Source: a virus. From it: DNA of 64,000 nucleotides. The DNA lies in IMG/VR virus record IMGVR_UViG_3300046492_000458, positions 1-64,000 of that record. One strand, 5' to 3'. The translations under genes and the position numbers were made by a program. Shown piece after piece: positions 39,469-62,264 of the stretch (within the stretch, counting starts at the first letter, position 1; every line of letters begins with the position of its first letter). The notes beneath the pieces were generated by a model. That model worked only from the letters and a program-made list of their open reading frames with translations. It ran no database searches and was not told where the DNA came from.

Positions 39469-40608
39469 TCACGCCCGAACTTCGCGGCGCTCCCGGCTCC
39501 GCTGGCACTGGGGGCACATCTCTTCGCCCTCCTTCAAAGGGCGCCCGCACAACCCGTCGTTGCCCTGGCACTCACCCAGGCGGACCCGCGGAACGATCGT
39601 CTCGGGATCCCAGGCCGCTGGAGTCGGCGTCGGCGTGTCCTTTGGCGCCCAGTCAGCCTTGAACTGCCCGACATGCGGCACAGGACCGGACAGAGCATCC
39701 CGCAACCTGCGGGCAACGATCGCGCCCACCGTCGTACGGATCGGATCGGGTAGCGGCCGCCCTGCGATGACCTGCCGGACCTGCTCCCGTGTCCAGCCCT
39801 GCATCAACATGCCGGCCACAGCCAGCCCTTGATCCTGGAGCGTCTTTCCCGTCAGGAGGAACTCCGGCTGCTGGGCACCGATCGCCTGAAGCAGATCGAC
39901 GCCTGGATTCCTTCCGATCTGATGGGGGACCGCTGAACCGTCCGTCCCTCCGTCCTTCCCGCTGCCAGCATCTGCCGCGGAAGGAAGGACGGGTTCTAGG
40001 TCCGGTTCATAAGGACTGGTTCGGGGGTCTTCAAGTCCCCCCGTTTGGGACTGAGAGTCCCCCCGTGGAGGACTGACAGTCCCCCCGCGGCCCCGCATGG
40101 GCCCCACGTCACGAGTGGACTGAGAGTCCCCCCGTTCCTCGGGCGGCTCGGCGGCGACGGCTTCGACCTCTTCAACCTGCGCCGTGGAGCGCTTCCTGCC
40201 CTTGTCGCTGCGGGTCTTCTTGGCTGGCGGAGGTGCGATCGGGGGACGGTTCTCGGGGGTCAGAGGCGTCTTGCCCCTTTCCCTCCGCTCCTTGTTGATC
40301 CGCTCGATGTTCGGGAACCAGTCGTACGGGATCAGCAGGTCCCACACGGGCGGCCGGCGGTCGGCACGGATGTACTCAGCCGCCTTCGGATCCCCAGGGC
40401 CGATCAACTTGCGTGCAGCGAGACCGGTCAGCGTGCGCTGGACGGTCTTTGGGTCCACAGTCGTCCGCTTCGCCACCGTTGAGCGGGCAGGGAAGGCGGC
40501 ACAGCCATCCGAATCGGCCTTCTCGGCCAACATGACCAGGATGGCGAACTCGTTGACGTTGGCGATCGGCGCGTCGCTCGTAGCCCAGAGGACAGCTTCG
40601 AAACTCAT
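39469..40608 (-). CDS. O-like replication protein with winged-helix domain
   Basis: 379 aa. Residues 1-105 (SFEAVLWATSDAPIANVNEFAILVMLAEKADSDGCAAFPARSTVAKRTTVDPKTVQRTLTGLAARKLIGPG) form a winged helix like that of phage O and plasmid replication proteins. The middle 100 residues are charged and disordered, and the C-terminal part has GLAVAGMLMQGWTREQVRQVIAGRPLPDPIRTTVGAIVARRLRDAL (DnaD-like or helicase-loader-binding helices) and a CxxC...C zinc ribbon (CGRPLKEGEEMCPQCQRSRE). The iterons at 40034-40134 lie within the disordered part, as in lambda O. An initiator role is therefore probable. Confidence 0.7.
   Translation of the reverse strand: MSFEAVLWATSDAPIANVNEFAILVMLAEKADSDGCAAFPARSTVAKRTTVDPKTVQRTLTGLAARKLIGPGDPKAAEYIRADRRPPVWDLLIPYDWFPNIERINKERRERGKTPLTPENRPPIAPPPAKKTRSDKGRKRSTAQVEEVEAVAAEPPEERGDSQSTRDVGPMRGRGGTVSPPRGDSQSQTGGLEDPRTSPYEPDLEPVLPSAADAGSGKDGGTDGSAVPHQIGRNPGVDLLQAIGAQQPEFLLTGKTLQDQGLAVAGMLMQGWTREQVRQVIAGRPLPDPIRTTVGAIVARRLRDALSGPVPHVGQFKADWAPKDTPTPTPAAWDPETIVPRVRLGECQGNDGLCGRPLKEGEEMCPQCQRSRERREVRA
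40034..40134. repeat. Iterons inside the replication gene, putative origin
   Basis: GGACTGAGAGTCCCCCCG occurs at 40048-40065 and 40117-40134, as GGACTGACAGTCCCCCCG at 40070-40087, and in part as AGTCCCCCCG at 40034-40043. Each full copy contains the inverted pair GGACT/AGTCC. The copies are read in all three frames of the enclosing protein, so the DNA sequence and not the amino acids is being conserved. Spacings are 22 and 47 bases. This resembles the lambda origin, where iterons sit inside gene O. Confidence 0.75.
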
Positions 40609-42471: not shown

Positions 42472-42600
42472 AGTACCAGCAAAACAACACGACCCCGGGC
42501 CAGCTCATCGCCAGACCGGGGCCGTGCGTCCCGGACGGTGTTCCCGCACCGAAAGGGACTTGGAACCGTCCTACCTGCGCTATCAGGAGGCCAGATCCGC

Positions 42601-42822
42601 ATGCAGGATCTCACGGCAAGCATTCCCATGGCACCGCACCCCGGTGACTTCGTCCACCAGGCGGCGCCGACCATCCTCGAGACGTTCCCCGCTGGTTCCC
42701 CGTACGGCAGCTGGCCGGCTGATGCGTTCGCCGCCGCCCGCCGCAACGAGGGCATCAACGCCGAGGTCGTCATGAACCTCGCCACCGACTCCTTCCTCGT
42801 CGTCGTGAAGGCCGGTGCGTGA
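42601..42822 (+). CDS. Small hypothetical protein, 73 aa, first gene of the transfer operon
   Basis: ATG with AGGAGG about 9 bases upstream. SIPMAPHPGDFVHQAAPTILETFPAGSPYGSWPADAFAAARRNEGINAEVVMNLATDSFLVVV: small alpha/beta protein. The stop overlaps the next start. Family not recognised; position suggests a role in transfer control. Confidence 0.55.
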   Translation: MQDLTASIPMAPHPGDFVHQAAPTILETFPAGSPYGSWPADAFAAARRNEGINAEVVMNLATDSFLVVVKAGA

Positions 42823-43229
42823 TGGCTGACCGTGACTACACGAACGAAGAGATGCGGCTGCTGGAGATGTACCACCAGCTCATCGCCCTCAGCGACGACA
42901 AGGACGTGGCGGGCAGGTTCATCCTCCTCGGCACCAACGGGGCGATCGTCGCGCACGGTTCCCTCGCCGCCCGCGACATCGAGGCCGCCACTCTCGCGCT
43001 CGCCGCGCTCAACGAGGCGAAGGCCGCCACGGAGGAGTCCACCGGACACGCCGTGTACGCCTCCCTCCCGAAGGTGCCGATCGACCAGGACCTCGAGAAC
43101 GAGCTTGAGGAGTACTGCATCAGCCTCGACACCGACCACCTGTTCGGCTTGGCCGCGCAGGACCAGGCCGCCGCGGTCGCCGAGTTCGACCAGATCACCA
43201 GCGATGTCGAAGGCGACGGGACCCTGTGA
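42822..43229 (+). CDS. Hypothetical protein, 135 aa
   Basis: ATG 42822 overlaps the previous stop (a GTG lies one codon earlier). NEEMRLLEMYHQLIALSDDKDVAGRFILLGTNGAIVAHGSLAARDIEAATLALAALNEAK is alpha/beta; the C-terminus is helical and acidic (DLENELEEYCISLDTDHLFGLAAQDQAAAVAEFDQI). Unknown family, coupled on both sides. Confidence 0.6.
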   Translation: MADRDYTNEEMRLLEMYHQLIALSDDKDVAGRFILLGTNGAIVAHGSLAARDIEAATLALAALNEAKAATEESTGHAVYASLPKVPIDQDLENELEEYCISLDTDHLFGLAAQDQAAAVAEFDQITSDVEGDGTL

Positions 43230-43645
43230 TGGCCGCGCACCCGGGCACGCACGTGCACCCCGCGGACAACGCGGTCCCGCCCCTGAACGACGACCTCGCC
43301 GGCCTCCTCGACGACCTGGTCGGTTTCCACCGCGGGCTGGACCTCATCGCCGACGGCGTACGGCTCCTGGCGCTGGACCGGCTGACGATCCCCCAGACGC
43401 AGACCGTCGTCACCATGCTCGCCGGTTCCACCGACCCGGCCGGCACGCAGATCGACGTGGCCGCCCTTATCGCCGCCCTCGTCGCCCGGCTCCTCAACGC
43501 CGACGAGAACCCGGCCCTCCGCACCCTCCCCGCCGACACCCAGGACCAGGCCCGCACCGCGGGCGCCGACTTTGCCGACCACGACGCCTACATCACCCCC
43601 CGCTCTGACATCGCCAAGACCGTCTACGACCTCAACCCGATCTGA
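43229..43645 (+). CDS. Hypothetical protein, 138 aa
   Basis: ATG overlapping the previous stop. LNDDLAGLLDDLVGFHRGLDLIADGVRLLALDRLTIPQTQTVVTMLAG and DVAALIAALVARLLNADENPALRTLPADTQDQA are helical. The end YITPRSDIAKTVYDLNPI is a short strand-helix. No family recognised. Confidence 0.58.
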   Translation: MAAHPGTHVHPADNAVPPLNDDLAGLLDDLVGFHRGLDLIADGVRLLALDRLTIPQTQTVVTMLAGSTDPAGTQIDVAALIAALVARLLNADENPALRTLPADTQDQARTAGADFADHDAYITPRSDIAKTVYDLNPI

Positions 43646-43738
43646 CCGCGCCCGGTGCCGGGTCAGCCACCACGGTGGCCCGGTGCCGAGTACGGCCAGC
43701 ACCATCCCGTCCCGCACCACCGGAAGGAGCACCACCCC

Positions 43739-43864
43739 ATGAAGAAGCAGCTCATCCGCCTGTGGCACCTGGTCGCGAACTCCGGCCAGTGCAACGTCTG
43801 CTCCGGCTGGTTCGACAACTGGCCCGGCGGCACCTGCGCCGCCTGCATCAACAACGGCTACTGA
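43739..43864 (+). CDS. Small zinc-knuckle protein, 41 aa
   Basis: ATG with GGAAGGAG about 9 bases upstream. MKKQLIRLWHLVANSGQCNVCSGWFDNWPGGTCAACINNGY: basic helix followed by CxxC...CxxC. Translation is well supported by the ribosome-binding site. Confidence 0.55.
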   Translation: MKKQLIRLWHLVANSGQCNVCSGWFDNWPGGTCAACINNGY

Positions 43865-43907
43865 CCCACCCCGACCACCCGCCTGCACCACCCGGAAGGA
43901 GCCCGCC

Positions 43908-44063
43908 ATGGCCGCCACCACCGACCAGACGACCACCACCACCGACGAGCCGCTGAACGGCCCCAAGTTCCGTGCCACCCACGGTGCAGAGGAGTGGAGC
44001 CCCGCCGAGATCGACGCCCAGCAGATCCTCGCCGAACTCGCCGCCTACGCCCCCGCCGCCTGA
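43908..44063 (+). CDS. Small hypothetical protein, 51 aa
   Basis: ATG with GGAAGGAG about 7 bases upstream. Thr-rich N-terminus (TTDQTTTTTDEP), then KFRATHGAEEWSPAEIDAQQILAELAAYAPAA. Unknown. One of a series of very small genes with the same leader pattern of CC.GGAAGGA. Confidence 0.5.
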   Translation: MAATTDQTTTTTDEPLNGPKFRATHGAEEWSPAEIDAQQILAELAAYAPAA

Positions 44064-44087
44064 CCACCGGAAGGACACCCGTACCCC

Positions 44088-44297
44088 ATGGCCAACGACC
44101 ACGTCCGCAACGCGACCCTCGCCCTCATCCCCCGCGACGGCTTCAACCGGCCCAGCGCCGGCCAGCTCCACGAGGCCGAAGTCCACGCCGCTCTCGCCAA
44201 GGCCGTCGAGCTGGGCCGGATCGCCGACGCGCTCGAGTCCCTCGCCGCCACCACCGCACTCGCGGACCTCGAGCCCGCCATCCACCACAGCCACTGA
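44088..44297 (+). CDS. Small hypothetical protein, 69 aa
   Basis: ATG with GGAAGGA about 9 bases upstream. RNATLALIPRDGFNRPSAGQLHEAEVHAALAKAVELGRIADALESLAATTALADLEPAIHH: helical. Family unknown. Confidence 0.5.
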   Translation: MANDHVRNATLALIPRDGFNRPSAGQLHEAEVHAALAKAVELGRIADALESLAATTALADLEPAIHHSH

Positions 44298-44340
44298 CCC
44301 CAGCCCATCCGCCCGAACCCACCGGAAGGACATCGATCCC

Positions 44341-44680: not shown

Positions 44681-46324
44681 ATGACCGCCACCCCGGCCCC
44701 CGGCACCGAGCCGACCCGCCCCGCCGTGGACGGCACCCTCGCGCCCACCGCGCCGGGGCAGCCCCCCATCACGCAGCCCCTCACCCGCACCCAGAAGACC
44801 CTCACCGGCGTCGTCGTCGGCGCCGTCCTCATCATCGCCACCCTCGGCTTCATCGGCTCCTACAGCGCCGTCACCCACCTCGCCATCCGCAAGGGCTTCG
44901 GCGAGTTCGCCCACGCCTTCCCCATCGCCGTCGACGCCGGCATCATCGCCTTCCTCGCCCTCGACCTCCTCCTCACCTGGCGCCGCATCGGCTTCCCCCT
45001 CCTCCGCTACACCGCATGGGGCCTCACCGCCGCCACCATCGCCTTCAACGCCGTCGCCGCCTGGCCCGACCCCGTCGGCGTCTCCATGCACGGCGTCATC
45101 CCCGTCCTCTTCGTCATCGCCGTCGAAGCCGCCCGGCACGCCATCGGCCGCATCGCCGACATCACCGCCGACAAGCACCTCGAAGGCCCCAACGCCTCCC
45201 GCTGGCTCCTCAACCCGGCCGGCACGTTCATCCTGTGGCGCCGCCAACGCCTGTGGAAGATCCGCCTGTGGGACACCGTCCTCGAGCTCGAGCGGGAGCG
45301 CCGCATTTATATCGGGCAGCTCCGCGGCACCTACGGCCGCGGATGGCGCCGCAAGGCCACCGCCGACCAGCTGCTCATCCTCCAGCTGTCCAAGGACGGC
45401 ATGAGCGTCACCGAGGCCCTCGCGCTCCCCGCCAAGGAGGCGGAGAAGCAGCGCGCCGAGGAGGACCGCATCAAGCGGAACCGGGAGCGCGCCGAAGCCG
45501 ACCGCCGCCGCCAGGCCGAGAACGAGCGCCGCGAGCAGAAGGAAGCCGACGAAGAGCAGGCCCGCCGCATCGAGGAGGAGCGCCTCGAACTCGAGCGCAA
45601 AGCCATCCAGGTCCAGCAGGAGAAGGACGAGGCCAACCGGCAGAAGCTGCTCGCCGACGCCCAGACCCGCGCCGACCTCGCCGAGATCCAGCGGCAGCAG
45701 CAGGAGAACGAGGCCGAAGCCGACCGCCGCCGCCAGGCCGCCCAGGACGAAGACGACCGACGCCGGCGCAACGAGCAACTCGAGCACACCCGCCTCATCA
45801 CGGCCGAGCAGGAGAAGGCTGCCCGAGCCGCTCAGGTTCGCCGCGAGAACGAAGAGCGCGCCCGGAAGGAAGCCGAGAAGAAGCTGGACGCCAGCACCCG
45901 CGCCGTCGAGATGCTCCGCCGCGCGGACAGTGCCAGTGCCAAGCAGGCGGCTGCCAGCCGCACTACCAGCCCTGCCAGTGCCAGCGCCGCACCTGCCACC
46001 CCGGCTGCCAACACCACGACTGCCAGTGCCAGCCCGGCACCTGCCAACGCCCCCCACCCTGCCAGTGCCAACAGCCCGGCTACCAACGCCAGTCCTGCCA
46101 GTGCCAGCGCTGCTACCACCTCTGCCAGCACTACCAACCCGATTGCCACCGACCACGTCGTCGCCACCTACCAGCTGCTGCAGGAGAAGGACGGCAAGGC
46201 CCCGTCCGACGCCAGGCTCGGCGAAGCCCTCGGCGTCTCCCGCTCCCGTGCCCAGCAGCTCCGCACCCAGGCCATCAACGACGGCCACCCCGAGCTGGCA
46301 AAGCCCCTCCGGATCGCCTCATGA
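44681..46324 (+). CDS. DUF2637 membrane protein of the transfer/spread cluster
   Basis: 547 aa. Residues 40-160 hold four membrane helices typical of DUF2637 (LTGVVVGAVLIIATLGFIGSYSAV, FPIAVDAGIIAFLALDLLLTW, YTAWGLTAATIAFNAVAAW, VIPVLFVIAVEAARHAIGRI), followed by WLLNPAGTFILWRRQRLWKIRLW. From about 250 to 410 is a long charged coiled coil (KEAEKQRAEEDRIKRNRERAEADRRR...), then an Ala/Ser/Pro-rich stretch (AASRTTSPASASAAPATPAANTT) whose codons form TGCCAGTG repeats, and a C-terminal HTH (DARLGEALGVSRSRAQQLRTQAI). DUF2637 proteins neighbour traB in Streptomyces conjugative elements and are thought to help intramycelial spread. Confidence 0.85.
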   Translation: MTATPAPGTEPTRPAVDGTLAPTAPGQPPITQPLTRTQKTLTGVVVGAVLIIATLGFIGSYSAVTHLAIRKGFGEFAHAFPIAVDAGIIAFLALDLLLTWRRIGFPLLRYTAWGLTAATIAFNAVAAWPDPVGVSMHGVIPVLFVIAVEAARHAIGRIADITADKHLEGPNASRWLLNPAGTFILWRRQRLWKIRLWDTVLELERERRIYIGQLRGTYGRGWRRKATADQLLILQLSKDGMSVTEALALPAKEAEKQRAEEDRIKRNRERAEADRRRQAENERREQKEADEEQARRIEEERLELERKAIQVQQEKDEANRQKLLADAQTRADLAEIQRQQQENEAEADRRRQAAQDEDDRRRRNEQLEHTRLITAEQEKAARAAQVRRENEERARKEAEKKLDASTRAVEMLRRADSASAKQAAASRTTSPASASAAPATPAANTTTASASPAPANAPHPASANSPATNASPASASAATTSASTTNPIATDHVVATYQLLQEKDGKAPSDARLGEALGVSRSRAQQLRTQAINDGHPELAKPLRIAS

Positions 46325-49828: not shown

Positions 49829-52120
49829 ATGAGCATCAACGCGAACACCACCAGCCAGCCCGCCGCCAGCACCACAGAACGCCGTATCGCCAGCATCACC
49901 AGCGCCGCCCCCATCGTCATCGGCATGGGCTCCCCCTTCCTCGACGGCAGCGCCGCCTTCCTCACCACACTCGCCTACGGCAGCGTTGCCGCCCTCACCA
50001 CCGCCAACTACATGAACCGGCTCCCACCCGGCCTGCAGAACCATCTCCCGGCCGCCGACATCCTCCGCGCCCACCGCACCCCCCTGGCCATCTCCACCCT
50101 CACCAGCGGCATGGCACTCGCCCTCGGCGTCCTCCAGGGCCCCGATGGCGCCGACGCCCTCCTGGCCGGCTTCCTGACCCCGCTCAGCGTGCCAGGCATC
50201 GTCTCCCTCGGCTGGTGGGCCGCCGTCGGCTTCGTCCCCCTCAAACTCCGCAAGGTCCTCGGCCGCGTCCGCATCCCCAAGCAGCCTGCTCCCGCGGCCG
50301 ATGCACCCAGCCCCACACCCGAACCCCTCACCCCCGCAGAGCAGATCGCCTACCGCTGGCACCAGATCGTCTCCAACCGGGAAACCGGCACCCACAGGGG
50401 CCAGAACATCGAGATCCGCACCCTGTCCACGATGCGCTGGCAAGGCACCATCACCGCCCCCGCAGGCCAGTCCGTCACCGTCACCGCCGACACCGTCTCC
50501 AGCGCCTACCAGTCCACCCCCTACCAGGTCCGCGCCGCCTGGATCCGCTTCGAGGACGGCGCCCACTCCGGCGAACGCCACATCACCGTCAACCTGGTCC
50601 CGCCCCTCGAACTCGACACCAACACCCTCCAAGGCGCCTGGCGCAAGTGGGCCGCACGCTCCGGCGGCGTCATGGCCGGCACCCACCTCGAAGACGTCCA
50701 GACCGACCCCAACACCGGCGGCGAAGTCGCCCACGTCACCGCAGGAGAGAACCTCGACAAGCTGCCCGTCCCCGACCGGGCCGCCCTCGCCGGCGCCCTC
50801 CGTACCAACACCCTCCTCTGCTCCTACGCCCCCGTCCCCGGAGACCCCCGCCGCGGCATCATCCGCCTGATGAAGCACAACCCCCTCAAGAAGGGCGTCC
50901 CGTTCCCCGGCACCCACGTCCTGAAGATCTCCAAGGGCGGCTACGTCCAGATCGGCCAGCACGTCTCCGGATTCCCCGCCCGCATCCAGTTCGTCGACCC
51001 CAAACTGGGCGCCAAGCACCTCTTCATCGCCGGGGTCACCGGATCCGGCAAGGGCGGCCTCATCCAGATCGTCGCCCTCGCCGACCACGTCAACGGCCAC
51101 GCCATCATCTACGCCGACCCCAAGGGCTCCTCCAACCCAGACGTCGAAGAGATGGCCTGCTACCCCGGCCTCGGCGAAGACGGCTGCATGGGAGCCCTGC
51201 GCGTCGCCTACGCCCTGCTGCAGTGGCGGATCGAAGAGTCCGCGCGGCTGAAGATGAAGAACTTCATCGCCACGCCCGAACGCCCCTGGGTCCGCGTCAT
51301 CCTCGACGAAGCCCACGTCCCACTGTCCGAACTGGTCCAGTACCGCAAGGAAGCCCGGATCATCGTCGAAGCCCTGGCGGCCAAGGCCCGCTCGCTCGGC
51401 ATCATCCTGACCGTCGTCAACCAGGCCGTGAACGCCGACAAGCTCGGCGGCTCCACCGCCTTGCGAACCAACGTCATCCAGGGCGGCTCCCTCGTCATGC
51501 TCCGCACCGACTCCGACCAGAGCAACCTCGTCACCACCGGCTTCGAAGGCGTCGACCCCGGCCAGATCCCCGCCGCCTGGGACGTCGACCGCCCGCTCAT
51601 CTACGACGAGAGCATCGCCCTCCAGGACCCCGAATCCACCTTCGGCCTCGGCTACACCCTCGGCCCCGGCGGAGCCGCCGAAATGATGCGCGACTTCATC
51701 CTCGAGTCCGCCGCCCCCTACATCGACGAGACCGCCATCGCCTACCCCGCCGACTGGCCCGACTGGGACAACCGGCACGAGATCGCCCAGACGTCCATCC
51801 TCGGCGACGACGAAGACGAGGGCATCGTCATGGAAAGCAGCACCGGCGGCAGCGCCACCCTGGCCGGCCCGCCGAAGGAACCCACCGCCGACGAGAAGAT
51901 CCTCGCCGTCCTCCAGGACGCCGCCGACCCGATGGGCGAAGAGGTCATCTACACGCACAAGGACGACATCGAGAAGCTCGCCGCGCTCACCACCTCCACC
52001 CTTGAGAACCGGCTTTCACGGCTGGTCAAGGAGGGGCGAATCCACCGCATGCCCGGCAGCGGCCAGGCCGTCCGCGGTAAGTACGGCCTCGGCCCCACCC
52101 CGAACGACGCCGCCGCCTGA
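49829..52120 (+). CDS. traB: FtsK/TraB-type conjugative DNA translocase
   Basis: 763 aa. Residues about 25-130 contain membrane helices (AAPIVIGMGSPFLDGSAAFLTTLAYGSVAALTT, GIVSLGWWAAVGFVPL). The motor carries Walker A GVTGSGKGG (about 402-410) and Walker B WVRVILDEAH (about 487-496), then IILTVVNQAVNADKLGGSTALRTNV with an LRTDSDQSN motif typical of FtsK-like translocases. The C-terminal 80 residues (DEKILAVLQDAADPMGEEVIYTHKDDIEKLAALTTSTLENRLSRLVKEGRIHRMPGSG) form a winged helix like the DNA-reading gamma domain. Such proteins move double-stranded plasmid DNA between mycelia. The Walker A ends in KG rather than the usual K-S/T. Confidence 0.9.
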   Translation: MSINANTTSQPAASTTERRIASITSAAPIVIGMGSPFLDGSAAFLTTLAYGSVAALTTANYMNRLPPGLQNHLPAADILRAHRTPLAISTLTSGMALALGVLQGPDGADALLAGFLTPLSVPGIVSLGWWAAVGFVPLKLRKVLGRVRIPKQPAPAADAPSPTPEPLTPAEQIAYRWHQIVSNRETGTHRGQNIEIRTLSTMRWQGTITAPAGQSVTVTADTVSSAYQSTPYQVRAAWIRFEDGAHSGERHITVNLVPPLELDTNTLQGAWRKWAARSGGVMAGTHLEDVQTDPNTGGEVAHVTAGENLDKLPVPDRAALAGALRTNTLLCSYAPVPGDPRRGIIRLMKHNPLKKGVPFPGTHVLKISKGGYVQIGQHVSGFPARIQFVDPKLGAKHLFIAGVTGSGKGGLIQIVALADHVNGHAIIYADPKGSSNPDVEEMACYPGLGEDGCMGALRVAYALLQWRIEESARLKMKNFIATPERPWVRVILDEAHVPLSELVQYRKEARIIVEALAAKARSLGIILTVVNQAVNADKLGGSTALRTNVIQGGSLVMLRTDSDQSNLVTTGFEGVDPGQIPAAWDVDRPLIYDESIALQDPESTFGLGYTLGPGGAAEMMRDFILESAAPYIDETAIAYPADWPDWDNRHEIAQTSILGDDEDEGIVMESSTGGSATLAGPPKEPTADEKILAVLQDAADPMGEEVIYTHKDDIEKLAALTTSTLENRLSRLVKEGRIHRMPGSGQAVRGKYGLGPTPNDAAA

Positions 52121-52122
52121 CC

Positions 52123-52472
52123 GGCCCGGGGGGAAGCGCCTCAGACAAACCCCCGCCCGTACGCCACCATCAGAACTGCACGGCCCGGAGCTCCGGAAGC
52201 GTCCCCCCGCCCCAAGCACCGCAAGCCGCGCAACACCCAGCTCGGACCAGCCCACCCCAGGCCCCCGAGCACAACGGCCCCGCCAGTCATCCCCAGACCG
52301 GCGGGGCCGACCCATACCCGCACACGGGACCGCCCGGGGGGAAGGCAGCTCAGACAAACCCCCCAACCTGCGACAGCATCAACACCAAGCCGAAGTGCTC
52401 CGGCCGCGTCCGCCCCAAGCACCCAGGCACACCACGGCCCCGCCCGCCCAACTTCCCCGGGCAGCGGGGCCG
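52123..52472. repeat. Tandem duplicated structured non-coding unit behind traB
   Basis: Two imperfect copies, 52123-52308 and 52331-52472. Each begins GCCCGGGGGGAAG, then CTCAGACAAACCCCC (G-run pairing with C-run), contains CCGCCCCAAGCACC and ends with a GGCCCCG.../...CGGGGCC hairpin. No gene lies across it. It directly follows traB, the position of clt in several Streptomyces plasmids, so it may be the TraB recognition locus; two copies of a structured RNA are an alternative. Confidence 0.7.
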
Positions 52473-52495
52473 GCCCGCAGACGAGGGAGCCGAAC

Positions 52496-53203
52496 GTGCA
52501 CGACCAGCCCACCGCGCTCGAGGAATACGACTGGCCGACCTGCAGCACTCCCCAATGCGGGCGGCAACTCTGGATCACCGAAACCGGACGCCAGGCCTGC
52601 CGCCCCTGCGAAGACGCCACCAGCCGCCGCATCACCGAACTCCCCGCCCTGTTCCGGCAGCTCAACACCACAGCCGCCCTCATGCGCGGCGCCAGCCGGA
52701 TAGGCGGCGGCAACTCCGGCAGCAAAACCCCGCCCATCCCGCCCCGGCTCGAAGTTCTCGCCCTCGTCGGCCCCGGCGGCGTCGCAGCCCGACTCCGGGA
52801 CATCGAGGACTCGTGGCGCAACGCGCTCGACTGGCCCATCGCTCCGTGGCGCGGCAGCCCGGCGCAGGCCGTCCCCGCCCACGCCAAGTTCCTTGCCGAC
52901 AACCTGCTGTGGGCATGCGGGTCCTACGAATCCGTCGGCCAGGACATCGACGACCTCCGTAAACTCCACGGCGAATGCACCGCCATCGTCAACAACGAAC
53001 GCCGACCCGGACGCGTCGCCATCGGCCTATGCCCCACCCGCACCAACGACACCCTCTGCGGACAGCCACTCACCGCCACAGCCGCCTCCCACCGCGTCCG
53101 ATGCGGCACCTGCGGAAGCCGCTGGGAAACCCTCGGAGAGTGGCGCCAGCTTCGCACCGCACAAGAGCAAGTGCTCGCTGAAACGGCAGGAGTCGCGGCG
53201 TGA
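52496..53203 (+). CDS. Hypothetical protein with terminal zinc ribbons, 235 aa
   Basis: GTG with GAGGGAG 6-7 bases upstream. N-terminal WPTCSTPQCGRQLWITETGRQACRPCEDATSRRI (C...C...CxxC) and C-terminal GLCPTRTNDTLCGQPLTATAASHRVRCGTCGSRWETLGEW are paired zinc ribbons. The middle is helical (LEVLALVGPGGVAARLRDIEDSWRNALDWPI). Proteins with this layout are common next to Streptomyces transfer genes. Function unknown. Confidence 0.65.
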   Translation: MHDQPTALEEYDWPTCSTPQCGRQLWITETGRQACRPCEDATSRRITELPALFRQLNTTAALMRGASRIGGGNSGSKTPPIPPRLEVLALVGPGGVAARLRDIEDSWRNALDWPIAPWRGSPAQAVPAHAKFLADNLLWACGSYESVGQDIDDLRKLHGECTAIVNNERRPGRVAIGLCPTRTNDTLCGQPLTATAASHRVRCGTCGSRWETLGEWRQLRTAQEQVLAETAGVAA

Positions 53204-54662: not shown

Positions 54663-55487
54663 ATGCGCCGCATCCTCACAACCGCCGCACTCGCCGCCGG
54701 CCTCCTGCTCGCCAGCCTCACCGCACCCACCGCGGCCGGCAGCACCCCGACCTGGCACCTACGCTTCACCGACGGATTCAACACCCCCGTCGCCAAGGGC
54801 CGTTTCACGGACTGCAATCACGCCGTGGACACCCCGAAGGCGTACTGCGGCGGCCTCACCGGCACCGTCCGCGCCAGCTGGTGGGCGTACCCCGCGGGCT
54901 GGCCCGACACCGCCACCCAACGCCACTATCCGGTCGGCGGCTACTACGACCCCGCCACCACCCTGTGGATCTCCGGTGGACAGCTCCACATCCGCATGTG
55001 GCGCGGCGCCTCCGGCCCCGTCCACTCCGCGACCGTCGTCCCCAAGGCCCTGATGGGCCAGCGGTACGGCCGGTACGAGGAACGATGGCGCGTCTCCAAG
55101 GCCGCGACCGGCTACAAGAGCGCGCACCTGCTCTGGCCCGTGACGGACAGCGCCTGCCCCAACTGCGAAATCGACTTCCCCGAAGGTAACTGGACGGGCA
55201 GCGTCAACGGCTACGCCCACCACCTCAACAGCATCGGCGGCGACCAGGACGCCTACGACGCCCGCGCAAAGTGGACCGACTGGCACACCACGGTGATCAC
55301 CTGGCAGCCCGGCAGCGTCACCCTGGCCATCGACGGGCGCACGGCCGGCCACAGCACCACGGCCGTCCCCAACACCGCCATGAGCTGGGACATCCAGAAC
55401 GAGACCGCCCTCGAAGGGCCAGCCCCGGCACCGAACACCAGCGCCCAGATGGACATCGAGTACGTTAAGGGCTGGTCGTGGAGCTGA
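54663..55487 (+). CDS. Secreted GH16-type beta-glucanase-like enzyme, 274 aa
   Basis: ATG 54663. Residues 1-25 (RRILTTAALAAGLLLASLTAPTAAG) are a Sec signal peptide. The catalytic centre EIDFPE at residues 169-174 matches the family-16 motif with nucleophile and acid/base glutamates. WHLRFTDGFNTPV, GRYEERWRVSKA, SAHLLWPVTDSACPNCEIDFPEGNW and WHTTVITWQPGSVTLAIDGR are typical flanks. Family 16 cleaves beta-1,3/1,4 glucans, agars and related polymers. On a phage-plasmid it could open host or fungal polysaccharides or alter the lysogen's surface. Substrate unknown. Confidence 0.85.
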   Translation: MRRILTTAALAAGLLLASLTAPTAAGSTPTWHLRFTDGFNTPVAKGRFTDCNHAVDTPKAYCGGLTGTVRASWWAYPAGWPDTATQRHYPVGGYYDPATTLWISGGQLHIRMWRGASGPVHSATVVPKALMGQRYGRYEERWRVSKAATGYKSAHLLWPVTDSACPNCEIDFPEGNWTGSVNGYAHHLNSIGGDQDAYDARAKWTDWHTTVITWQPGSVTLAIDGRTAGHSTTAVPNTAMSWDIQNETALEGPAPAPNTSAQMDIEYVKGWSWS

Positions 55488-59997: not shown

Positions 59998-60177
59998 ATG
60001 CAGTGGTTTCTGCTGGGTACGGCGCTGTGGCTTGTGCTGGGCGCCCTTTCCTCGGTGACCTCGGTCGGTAAGGAGAGGAAGCCGATCTCTGGAGGTACGG
60101 CCGCCGTAGGAGTGCTGATCCATGGGGCGTTGGCCGCCGGGCTGATCGTCGCTGCAGTGGGGTGGTCGCATGCCTAG
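59998..60177 (+). CDS. Small two-helix membrane protein, 59 aa
   Basis: ATG with AAGGAG 6 bases upstream. FLLGTALWLVLGALSSVTSVG and GGTAAVGVLIHGALAAGLIVAAVGW are membrane helices. The stop overlaps the terminase small subunit start. Could be a holin-like or spacer protein; nothing decides. Confidence 0.55.
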   Translation: MQWFLLGTALWLVLGALSSVTSVGKERKPISGGTAAVGVLIHGALAAGLIVAAVGWSHA

Positions 60178-60643
60178 CGGCGGTGCGCGTGCACGCTCCG
60201 GTCCTGCCCCTGACCCGACTGCGCTGCGGCGTGACCGGGATGCCGGCGAGTGGACGATCCTGCCTGCGGAGGGCCGACAGGGCGCAACGCCCGAGTGGCC
60301 GCTGACCGAGCAGACGATCCGTGAAGCCGACCTGTGGGGCGCCTTGTGGCGGAAGCCACAGGCGATCATGTGGGAGCGGTATGGCCAGGAGTTCGAGGTG
60401 GCGCTGTACGTGCGCCGCTTCTCCGAGGCCGAGTTGATGGACTCCCGGGTGAATCTGTCGACGCTAATCCGGCAGATGGCGGACTCGCTGGGTCTGACGA
60501 CGCCGGGGATGCGGGCGAACCGGTGGCGGATCGCGGTCGATGAGGTCGCGGAGCGCCGTGAGGGGGCCGGGAAGCAGCAGCCGGCCACGCGGCGCGCGGC
60601 TCGGGATCGTTTCAAGGTCGTGCCCGGTGACGGGGGCGAGTGA
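60170..60643 (+). CDS. Phage terminase small subunit
   Basis: 157 aa, start overlapping the previous gene. SGGARARSGPAPDPTALRRDRDAGEWTILPAEGRQGATPEWPLTEQTIREADLWGALWRKPQAIMWERYGQEFEVALYVRRFSEAELMDSRVNLSTLIRQMADSLGLTTPGMRANRWRI is the usual Streptomyces phage small-terminase pattern. It recognises the packaging site and hands DNA to the large subunit, whose gene overlaps its end. Confidence 0.85.
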   Translation: MPSGGARARSGPAPDPTALRRDRDAGEWTILPAEGRQGATPEWPLTEQTIREADLWGALWRKPQAIMWERYGQEFEVALYVRRFSEAELMDSRVNLSTLIRQMADSLGLTTPGMRANRWRIAVDEVAERREGAGKQQPATRRAARDRFKVVPGDGGE

Positions 60644-62264
60644 GCAGGTCGTCCAGTGGCCCACGCTCGGCTTTCTGATCGCGGACTGGGTTGAGGCGCA
60701 CTGCGTCATCCCGGACGGGTTCTCTGCTGGTGAGCCGTATGTTCTGACGGACGAGATGCTGTGGTTCTTCCTGAACCACTACCGGGTGAAGCCCGGGGCG
60801 ACGCGCGAGCGCTCGATGTTGTCGCCAGCGTCGGCGTTCCATTTCCGGCGTAGCCAGCTGGTCCGTCCGCAGAAGTGGGGCAAGGGACCGTTGACTGCCG
60901 CGCAGGTCTGCGTGGAGGGTGTCGGGCCTGCCGTGTTCGCCGGTTGGGCGGCTGGCGGCGAGGTCTACGACTGCCGGGTTCACGGCTGCGGCTGTGGCTG
61001 GGTGTTCGAGTACGAGCCGGGCGATCCGATGGGTATGCCGTGGCCGACGCCGCTGATTCAGATCACGGCGTTCTCGGAGGAGCAGACCGACAACATTTAC
61101 GGCGCCCTCAGGCCGATGATCGACAAGGGTCCGTTGTCGGAGCTGATTCCGAAGACGGGCGAGGAGTTCATCCGCCTTCCGGGTGGCGGCCGCGTCGACA
61201 CGGTGACGTCGTCGGCCCAGTCTCGCCTCGGCCAGCGCGTGACGTTCGTGCCTCAGGACGAGACTGGCATCTGGACGACTGAGAACAAGATGCAGAAGGT
61301 TGCCGATACGCAGCGGCGTGGCCTGGCGGGTATGGGTGGCCGGTCGACGGAGACGACGAACGGCTGGGACCCGTCGGAGAACAGCGTGGCGCAGCGGTCG
61401 TTCGAGGCGAAGGTCCAGGACATCTTCCGGGACTTTCGCAAGGCGCCGGCCGATCTGAACTACGCCAAGAAGACGGACCGTCGGAAGATCCATAAGGCGG
61501 TGTACGGCGACTCCTGGTGGGTCGACCTCGACGCGATCGAGGCCGAGGCCGCGGAGTTGCTGGAGCGTGACCAGGCGCAGGCGGAGCGGTTCTTCGGGAA
61601 CCGGATCACGGCCGGTACCGGTACATGGCTGGCCCGGGATCGTTGGGATCTGCGGGCGGTACCCCGTGAAGTCCCGGACGGTACGCCTGTTGTCCTCGGC
61701 TTCGACGGCTCGGACATCGACGACTGGACCGGCATCCGCGCCGAGACGCTGGACGGCTATCAGTTCACACCGGTGTACAGCTCGCTGGAACTGCCGACTA
61801 TCTGGGATCCAGCCGAGTGGGGCGGTCAGACGCCGCGGCTTGAGGTAGATGCGGCGGTGGATGAACTGATGCGTCGCTATCGGGTGGTGCGCATGTACTG
61901 CGATCCGCCGTACTGGCCAACCGAGGTCGATACCTGGGCGGAGCGGTACGGCGAGAAGCGCGTGGTCCGCTGGTACACGCACCGGGATGTTCAGACGCAT
62001 GCGGCCTGCGAGCGCCTGTTGACGGACGTGACAAAGGCCGACAGCGGATTCACGCACGACGGTTGCGAAGACACATCGGCGCACGTGGGGCACGCGCGGA
62101 GGGCGGCCCGCACCGCTGGCCGCTACGTGCTCCGGAAGGCCGCGCCCCATCAAAAGATCGACATGGCGATGGTGTCCATCCTCGCCCACGAGGCGGCGGG
62201 CGACGCAATCGCAGCTGGCCAGGCCCGGCCGAAGGTTTCCCGGAAGACGACTGTGATGCGCTGA
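60627..62264 (+). CDS. Phage terminase large subunit
   Basis: 545 aa from GTG 60627, overlapping the small subunit by 17 bases. RSQLVRPQKWGKGPLTAAQV (about 76-95) is the Walker A region, VTFVPQDETGIWTTENKMQKV (about 205-225) the Walker B and coupling region, and VVLGFDGSDIDDWTGI (about 354-370) with MYCDPPYW the nuclease centre. ATP-driven packaging and cutting of phage DNA is the known role. It starts the head-gene order terminase, portal, minor head. Confidence 0.94.
   Translation: MTGASEQVVQWPTLGFLIADWVEAHCVIPDGFSAGEPYVLTDEMLWFFLNHYRVKPGATRERSMLSPASAFHFRRSQLVRPQKWGKGPLTAAQVCVEGVGPAVFAGWAAGGEVYDCRVHGCGCGWVFEYEPGDPMGMPWPTPLIQITAFSEEQTDNIYGALRPMIDKGPLSELIPKTGEEFIRLPGGGRVDTVTSSAQSRLGQRVTFVPQDETGIWTTENKMQKVADTQRRGLAGMGGRSTETTNGWDPSENSVAQRSFEAKVQDIFRDFRKAPADLNYAKKTDRRKIHKAVYGDSWWVDLDAIEAEAAELLERDQAQAERFFGNRITAGTGTWLARDRWDLRAVPREVPDGTPVVLGFDGSDIDDWTGIRAETLDGYQFTPVYSSLELPTIWDPAEWGGQTPRLEVDAAVDELMRRYRVVRMYCDPPYWPTEVDTWAERYGEKRVVRWYTHRDVQTHAACERLLTDVTKADSGFTHDGCEDTSAHVGHARRAARTAGRYVLRKAAPHQKIDMAMVSILAHEAAGDAIAAGQARPKVSRKTTVMR

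Follow-up and report, generated by a model that had tools for sequence, protein, structure and literature searches.

A duplicated candidate small-RNA gene behind traB in a Streptomyces phage-plasmid-like virus contig, with possible pairing to late transcripts in relatives

Overview

The window is a stretch of 64,000 nucleotides (nt) from a virus contig of 65.6 kb (IMG/VR record IMGVR_UViG_3300046492_000458). Immediately behind its traB gene, at 52123-52472, lies a duplicated noncoding element with relatives in Streptomyces phage-plasmids. We lean, without great assurance, toward reading the repeat as two adjacent copies of a small regulatory RNA gene, with the RNA of this family acting as an antisense regulator of late phage mRNAs. 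Each copy would possess a promoter, composed of a GGGGGAAG box, a -35 hexamer CAGACA, 17 nt, and a -10 hexamer CANNNT, that drives a small RNA. The RNA would begin with a hairpin whose exposed tip is C-rich, and the closing hairpin would probably terminate transcription. Across the family as a whole, this tip, CCCCGCGCC, could base-pair with GGCGCGGGG where late transcripts (those of terminase and of the next two genes after the terminase operon) are predicted to begin. Late phage genes would thereby be kept quiet during plasmid life, e.g., by RNase III attack or by interference with early elongation or translation. The two-copy repeat, its family, the maintained stem pairing, the strict spacing within the promoter-like block, and the exact tip complementarity with its joint absence are computed results; the production of the RNA, its start and end, its pairing, and its repressive effect are inferred from sequence.

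To our knowledge, it is not known how Streptomyces phage-plasmids silence their late genes in the plasmid state. The proposal can be tested directly, since it posits one RNA with a defined 9-nt tip and late messages that share identical predicted starts. It would explain the near-invariance of the first bases of late messages and would provide a simple sequence tag for recognizing and grouping such elements.

The repeat unit and its family

A repeat search identified two diverged copies, copy 1 at about 52119-52315 and copy 2 at about 52328-52480. They share a 54-nt block (52119-52172 and 52328-52381, 76% identical), an exact 14-mer pair, CCGCCCCAAGCACC (52207 in copy 1, 52410 in copy 2), and a 15-nt CACAACGGCCCCGCC-type pair (52270 in copy 1, 52430 in copy 2). 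The exact 15-mer CTCAGACAAACCCCC has two occurrences in the whole record and no other without mismatches. A strong G/C hairpin closes each copy, and that of copy 1 folds at -28.8 kcal/mol, where shuffled sequences average -14.2 (z -6.3). The features of the element and its context, all on the plus strand, are as follows.

52129..52136, +, copy 1 GGGGGAAG box, probably a site for a regulator or an upstream promoter element; conserved in homologues, also at late promoters and the second promoter
52142..52147, +, copy 1 predicted -35, CAGACA; CNGACA in 57/57 distinct homologues
52165..52170, +, copy 1 predicted -10, CACCAT, 17 nt 3′ of the -35; CANNNT in 57/57, positions 3-5 free
52177..52232, +, copy 1 predicted RNA hairpin (P2 of the family) with its outer arms at 52177-52184 and 52225-52232
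52201..52211, +, copy 1 C-rich tip at the apex, GTCCCCCCGCC; consensus of the family, GTCCCCGCGCC
52275..52309, +, copy 1 terminator-like hairpin without a U-tract; repeat search and folding energy
52337..52344, +, copy 2 GGGGGAAG box
52351..52356, +, copy 2 predicted -35, CAGACA
52374..52379, +, copy 2 predicted -10, CAGCAT
52389..52428, +, copy 2 diverged hairpin, GCC/GGC and GTGCT/AGCAC; copy 2 of record L015 pairs likewise
52435..52470, +, copy 2 terminator-like hairpin; folding
49829..52120, +, TraB/FtsK-like translocase gene, upstream context outside the element; evidence is an alignment and the annotation of relatives (conjugative DNA transfer proteins)
60170..62264, +, genes for both terminase subunits, small and large (context), separated from the element by about 8 kb of other genes

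A covariance model was trained on 32 sequences (copy 1 and 31 relatives) and run over 69 sources. It gave 60 strong matches, mostly one per locus, and recovered copy 2, which was not in the training set, with an E-value of about 5e-9. The ten weakest matches, some of which sit on the opposite strand of the same hairpin, were not counted. Because the model recovers an untrained copy and about 60 family members, the unit is far beyond chance.

A preliminary description, made from the window's letters, had proposed two diverged copies of a 140-190-base noncoding unit ending in a G/C hairpin. The duplication and the hairpins are borne out by the repeat pairs, the model match of copy 2, and the folding of copy 1, while the size is revised to about 150-200 nt with the end hairpin counted in. 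Its statement that the unit fits no protein-coding frame also agrees with the family: indel lengths among the homologues do not keep to multiples of three, and no reading frame was seen to be conserved. An Rfam search of the element returned nothing above the gathering threshold.

The homologues number about 60 and come from pSAM1/pSLE1-like Streptomyces phage-plasmids, almost always as a single copy. In the plasmid collection, the record's relatives, e.g., pSAM1 and pSLE1, are Streptomyces plasmids of 86-94 kb that carry phage genes. A blastn search matched 24 plasmid records and no phage records, and further members were gained via protein and pattern searches of viral contigs. Members are present in 9 of 295 sampled Streptomyces genomes, the weakest of them perhaps spurious. 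Two full copies were seen in no records but the window, contigs nearly identical to it, and L015, whose record is a 20-kb fragment. Two DNA-pattern matches (L073 and L074) were rejected as family members, and several matches from an exact 15-mer scan of viral contigs were unrelated.

A promoter-like 5′ block

The 5′ block is made up of about 48 conserved nt, gap-free in nearly all members: the GGGGGAAG box, CNGACA, 17 nt, and CANNNT. The spacing CNGACA-N17-CANNNT is exact in all 57 distinct members. CANNNT resembles a bacterial -10 because its A2 and T6 are fixed in these members while positions 3-5 vary. The conserved 5′ islands (GGGGGAAG, CTCAGACAAAC, CAUCA) fit a promoter better than an RNA. 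An antisense small RNA gene should have its own promoter, and one is present as far as sequence can tell.

The base-pairing ends noted earlier are possible in part. The 5′ GGGG is able to pair with CCCC beside CAGACAAA in both window copies, but the pairing is not maintained in relatives. A long-range pseudoknot of 5′ GGGG with the tip CCCC was likewise set aside; it is possible but invariant, has no covariation support, and the GGGG box is better explained by a promoter.

The box and -35 (GGGGGAAGGCGCCTCAGACAAAC) recur at a second site in eight records, with the TAnnnT hexamer TAGCGT at equal distance. This second promoter (L103-L109 and L098) is composed of the GGGGGAAG box, a CTCAGACAAAC -35, and the -10 TAGCGT. 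It lies near the integrase gene in both annotated records looked at and is probably co-regulated with the small RNA.

Hairpins of the predicted RNA

The 3′ half of the unit, and only this half, is supported as RNA. In the outer stem, P2, sequence classes differ while pairing is intact; the classes GTGCACGGCCC/GGGCCGTGCAC and GTGTCGGCCC/GGGCCGACAC are related by compensatory changes. The sequence of the inner stem, P2b, is almost free. In an alignment-free permutation test on 38 non-redundant members, matched stem halves paired far better than permuted halves (P2 z 9.8, P2b z 9.5, with 0 of 5000 permutations as high). Copy 1 of the window has one A.C mismatch in P2. The structured RNA offered as an option in the preliminary description is thus retained for the stems, which keep pairing despite sequence change, and given up for the 5′ islands.

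The tip GUGUCCCCGCGCC is present in most members. The family has the conserved structure and exposed tip of an antisense small RNA, with exposure predicted about half the time only. The closing hairpin is below -15 kcal/mol in 53 of 53 members, lacks a U-tract, and probably ends transcription. The predicted RNA starts are at about 52177 for copy 1 and about 52386 for copy 2; in pSAM1, the predicted start is the hairpin start AGUGCACGG, at about 2800 on the minus strand.

An HDV-like ribozyme was considered and dropped by reasoning on topology and on a 45-nt insertion between the first strands. A count of G.U against A.C pairs as a test of the RNA strand (26 vs 60) was uninformative because of base composition.

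Complementarity to predicted late transcript starts

Terminase leaders contain a nearly invariant stretch in which GGGGAAC is followed after about 18 nt by a -10-like hexamer and, about 6 nt further on, by AGGCGCGGGGCC. The spacing is near-fixed (GGGGAA-N32-34-AGGCGCGGGGCC), with up to three such motifs per plasmid. In pSAM1 (NZ_CP012383), the late-promoter-like motif is found at 2579, 87486, and 89435, all on the minus strand; one copy precedes the small-terminase gene, and those at 87486 and 89435 stand in front of two other late genes. The arrangement with the box is observed in 32 of 42 family records, and three records that escape the box pattern have exactly three AGGCGCGGGGCC copies each. 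Without the box requirement, AGGCGCGGGGCC occurs exactly three times in each of five records checked (chance expectation about 0.23 per plasmid). Judged by the position of the -10, AGGCGCGGGG would be the very start of the late mRNAs, and the first transcribed bases of late messages are predicted to be nearly invariant.

In 35 records, the GGCGCGGGG motif and the reverse complement of the tip CCCCGCGCC are identical, a 9-nt match. The motif is predicted to lie at the transcript start of terminase and, in the fully checked plasmids, of two more late genes. All 35 records with the late motif have an intact tip. None of the seven records without it does, the tip being altered or missing in the window, L015, L026, L028, L043, L051, and L005. 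With kinship ignored, the probability of this joint absence is 1/C(42,7) = 3.7e-8. A complementary candidate target is found in 35 relatives and is lacking in the window and six other records. The RNA promoter and the late promoters have the GGGGGAA box in common, which suggests a single regulator for the two.

These matches could also serve activation. The same RNA would pair with late mRNA 5′ ends and stabilize them by shielding the end from RNases, and it would be made together with the late genes via the shared GGGGGAA box. This is rather unlikely, even though the common box suggests joint control and the match covers the predicted late 5′ end; the RNA gene comes last in the transfer module, and cargo often separates it from the late genes. 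By analogy with the immunity RNAs c4 of phage P1 and CI of phage P4, we think late-gene silencing in the plasmid state likelier than activation. Less probable again is that the box and GGCGCGGGG (inverted in the element) are DNA operators for one regulatory protein, the small-RNA reading being wrong or secondary. Both short motifs are shared by the element and the late promoters, and where the second is missing, it is missing from both. Operators leave unexplained the changed flanking stems with kept pairing, the position of the motif at a hairpin tip, and the terminator-like hairpin.

Several observations weigh against an antisense RNA. The -10 of the element lacks the first T. The tip is predicted to be unpaired only about half the time (mean 0.52). 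Covariation, the check suggested in the preliminary description, gave a divided result: the permutation test is strong, but a tree-aware column test, which ranks two P2 pairs first, assigns them E-values of 0.25 and 1.0, not < 0.05. The covariance-model alignment used in the column test shifts one P2 class by one base. The seven exceptions are not independent; several belong to one lineage, and at least three or four lineages are distinguished by eye. Full-length duplexes with the late leaders of pSAM1 show no clear gain in energy over those with shuffled leaders, and the antisense case therefore rests on the 9-nt match and not on overall stability. GC-rich sequence also makes short complementarity cheaper. 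Finally, the late motif is absent from the window, and no target was found there.

The lineage of the window

Copy 1 of the window has the tip GUCCCCCCGCC, and copy 2 has diverged further. A replacement target was looked for in lineages with altered tips, and none was found. Both copies look like working genes because each retains the box, -35, -10, hairpin, and closing hairpin.

A broader proposal is more tentative and falls somewhat short of an even chance. Here the family is an undescribed class of small RNAs that switches between lysis and the plasmid state. Its 9-nt tip would read the identical 5′ end of up to three late transcripts, and its promoter box would be common to the late promoters. 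Where the late module differs, as in the window, the tip would have drifted to other targets; there the gene is also duplicated.

Genomic setting

The element lies 3′ of the last transfer-module gene, which may encode a TraB-like protein, a restriction endonuclease, a GIY-YIG protein, or another product. The tie to traB drawn earlier holds as adjacency in the window; it is positional only, as other genes are often directly upstream. In most relatives, the terminase small and large subunits are encoded downstream on the same strand, with variable cargo between. NBC_01483 and S. europaeiscabiei retain the element even though they encode the terminase on the opposite strand. The NBC_01483 element is 91% identical to copy 1 and is located downstream of an unrelated translocase. 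A transfer site and a packaging site are both disfavored because the element tracks neither TraB type nor terminase type.

The preliminary description had also considered clt, a TraB-bound DNA site for plasmid transfer. This is improbable. In its favor, the element is directly 3′ of traB in many relatives, and the clt of pWTY27 is just behind traA (PMC3583192). Against it, an array of 7-14 bp direct repeats is lacking, with only two-copy matches inside the unit and no 8-mer cluster in or adjoining the element. The NBC_01483 copy, with other genes between it and the unrelated translocase, does not follow Tra type, and conserved promoter spacing and kept pairing would be unexpected in a clt. All PLSDB records H1-H24 are typed as "non-mobilizable", though many encode TraB-like transfer proteins; relaxase-based typing probably misses this kind of transfer in them.

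A packaging site (cos/pac), or an RNA needed for packaging, is still less credible. In most relatives, the late gene that comes next downstream encodes the small terminase subunit, but up to 8 kb of cargo can intervene, and the element stays in place in the two genomes with an opposite-strand terminase. No element was seen in the parts examined of the lytic phages Kromp and phiSASD1 (TerL 57-67% identical), whose records begin about 190-200 bp before the small-terminase gene. The lowest probability is given to an RNA-based replication origin such as that of mycobacterial cluster A prophages. The mycobacterial RNAs adjoin parABS, whereas the pSAM1 element (2716-2860) is about 40 kb from parAB (42538-44327).

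Neighboring genes and repeats

Directly 3′ of copy 2, the window encodes a cysteine-rich hypothetical protein (52496-53203) that had no match in a Pfam search. It is also found behind the single element of NBC_01369 (L051), and the gene may have moved together with copy 2. A cargo gene between the element and terminase (54663-55484) is glycosyl hydrolase family 16-like (Pfam E 7.7e-05). Clustered GCCAGTGCC-type octamer repeats lie within a coding region of the transfer module (45928-46095), and a cluster of AGTCCCCCCG repeats, with at least four copies in 100 bp, is located at 40034-40127.

Comparison with known systems

The phage-plasmids P1 and P4 encode antisense immunity RNAs (c4 and CI, respectively) with an exposed loop complementary to the leader of the lytic transcript. 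The predicted RNA would resemble these as a small structured phage-plasmid RNA whose exposed loop is complementary to a leader. Unlike c4 and CI, it would have its own promoter and terminator away from its targets, and up to three late mRNAs would offer one identical predicted 5′ end. Small RNAs with C-rich loops are known in Gram-positive bacteria, e.g., the Rsa RNAs of S. aureus. As in these, a C-rich hairpin loop could start pairing with a G-rich target; here the RNA would be directed at the very first bases predicted for late mRNAs and not at a ribosome-binding site, and host and element differ.

The clt of pWTY27 is noncoding, contains inverted repeats, and adjoins a tra gene (PMC3583192). 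The element is similarly a noncoding stretch with inverted repeats behind a tra gene, but it has no direct-repeat array, is independent of Tra protein type, and has a promoter-like architecture. Extrachromosomal mycobacterial prophages have noncoding RNA origins (PMC7157519). The predicted RNA would likewise be a noncoding RNA of an actinobacterial prophage plasmid; it differs in not adjoining parABS and in its complementarity to late leaders.
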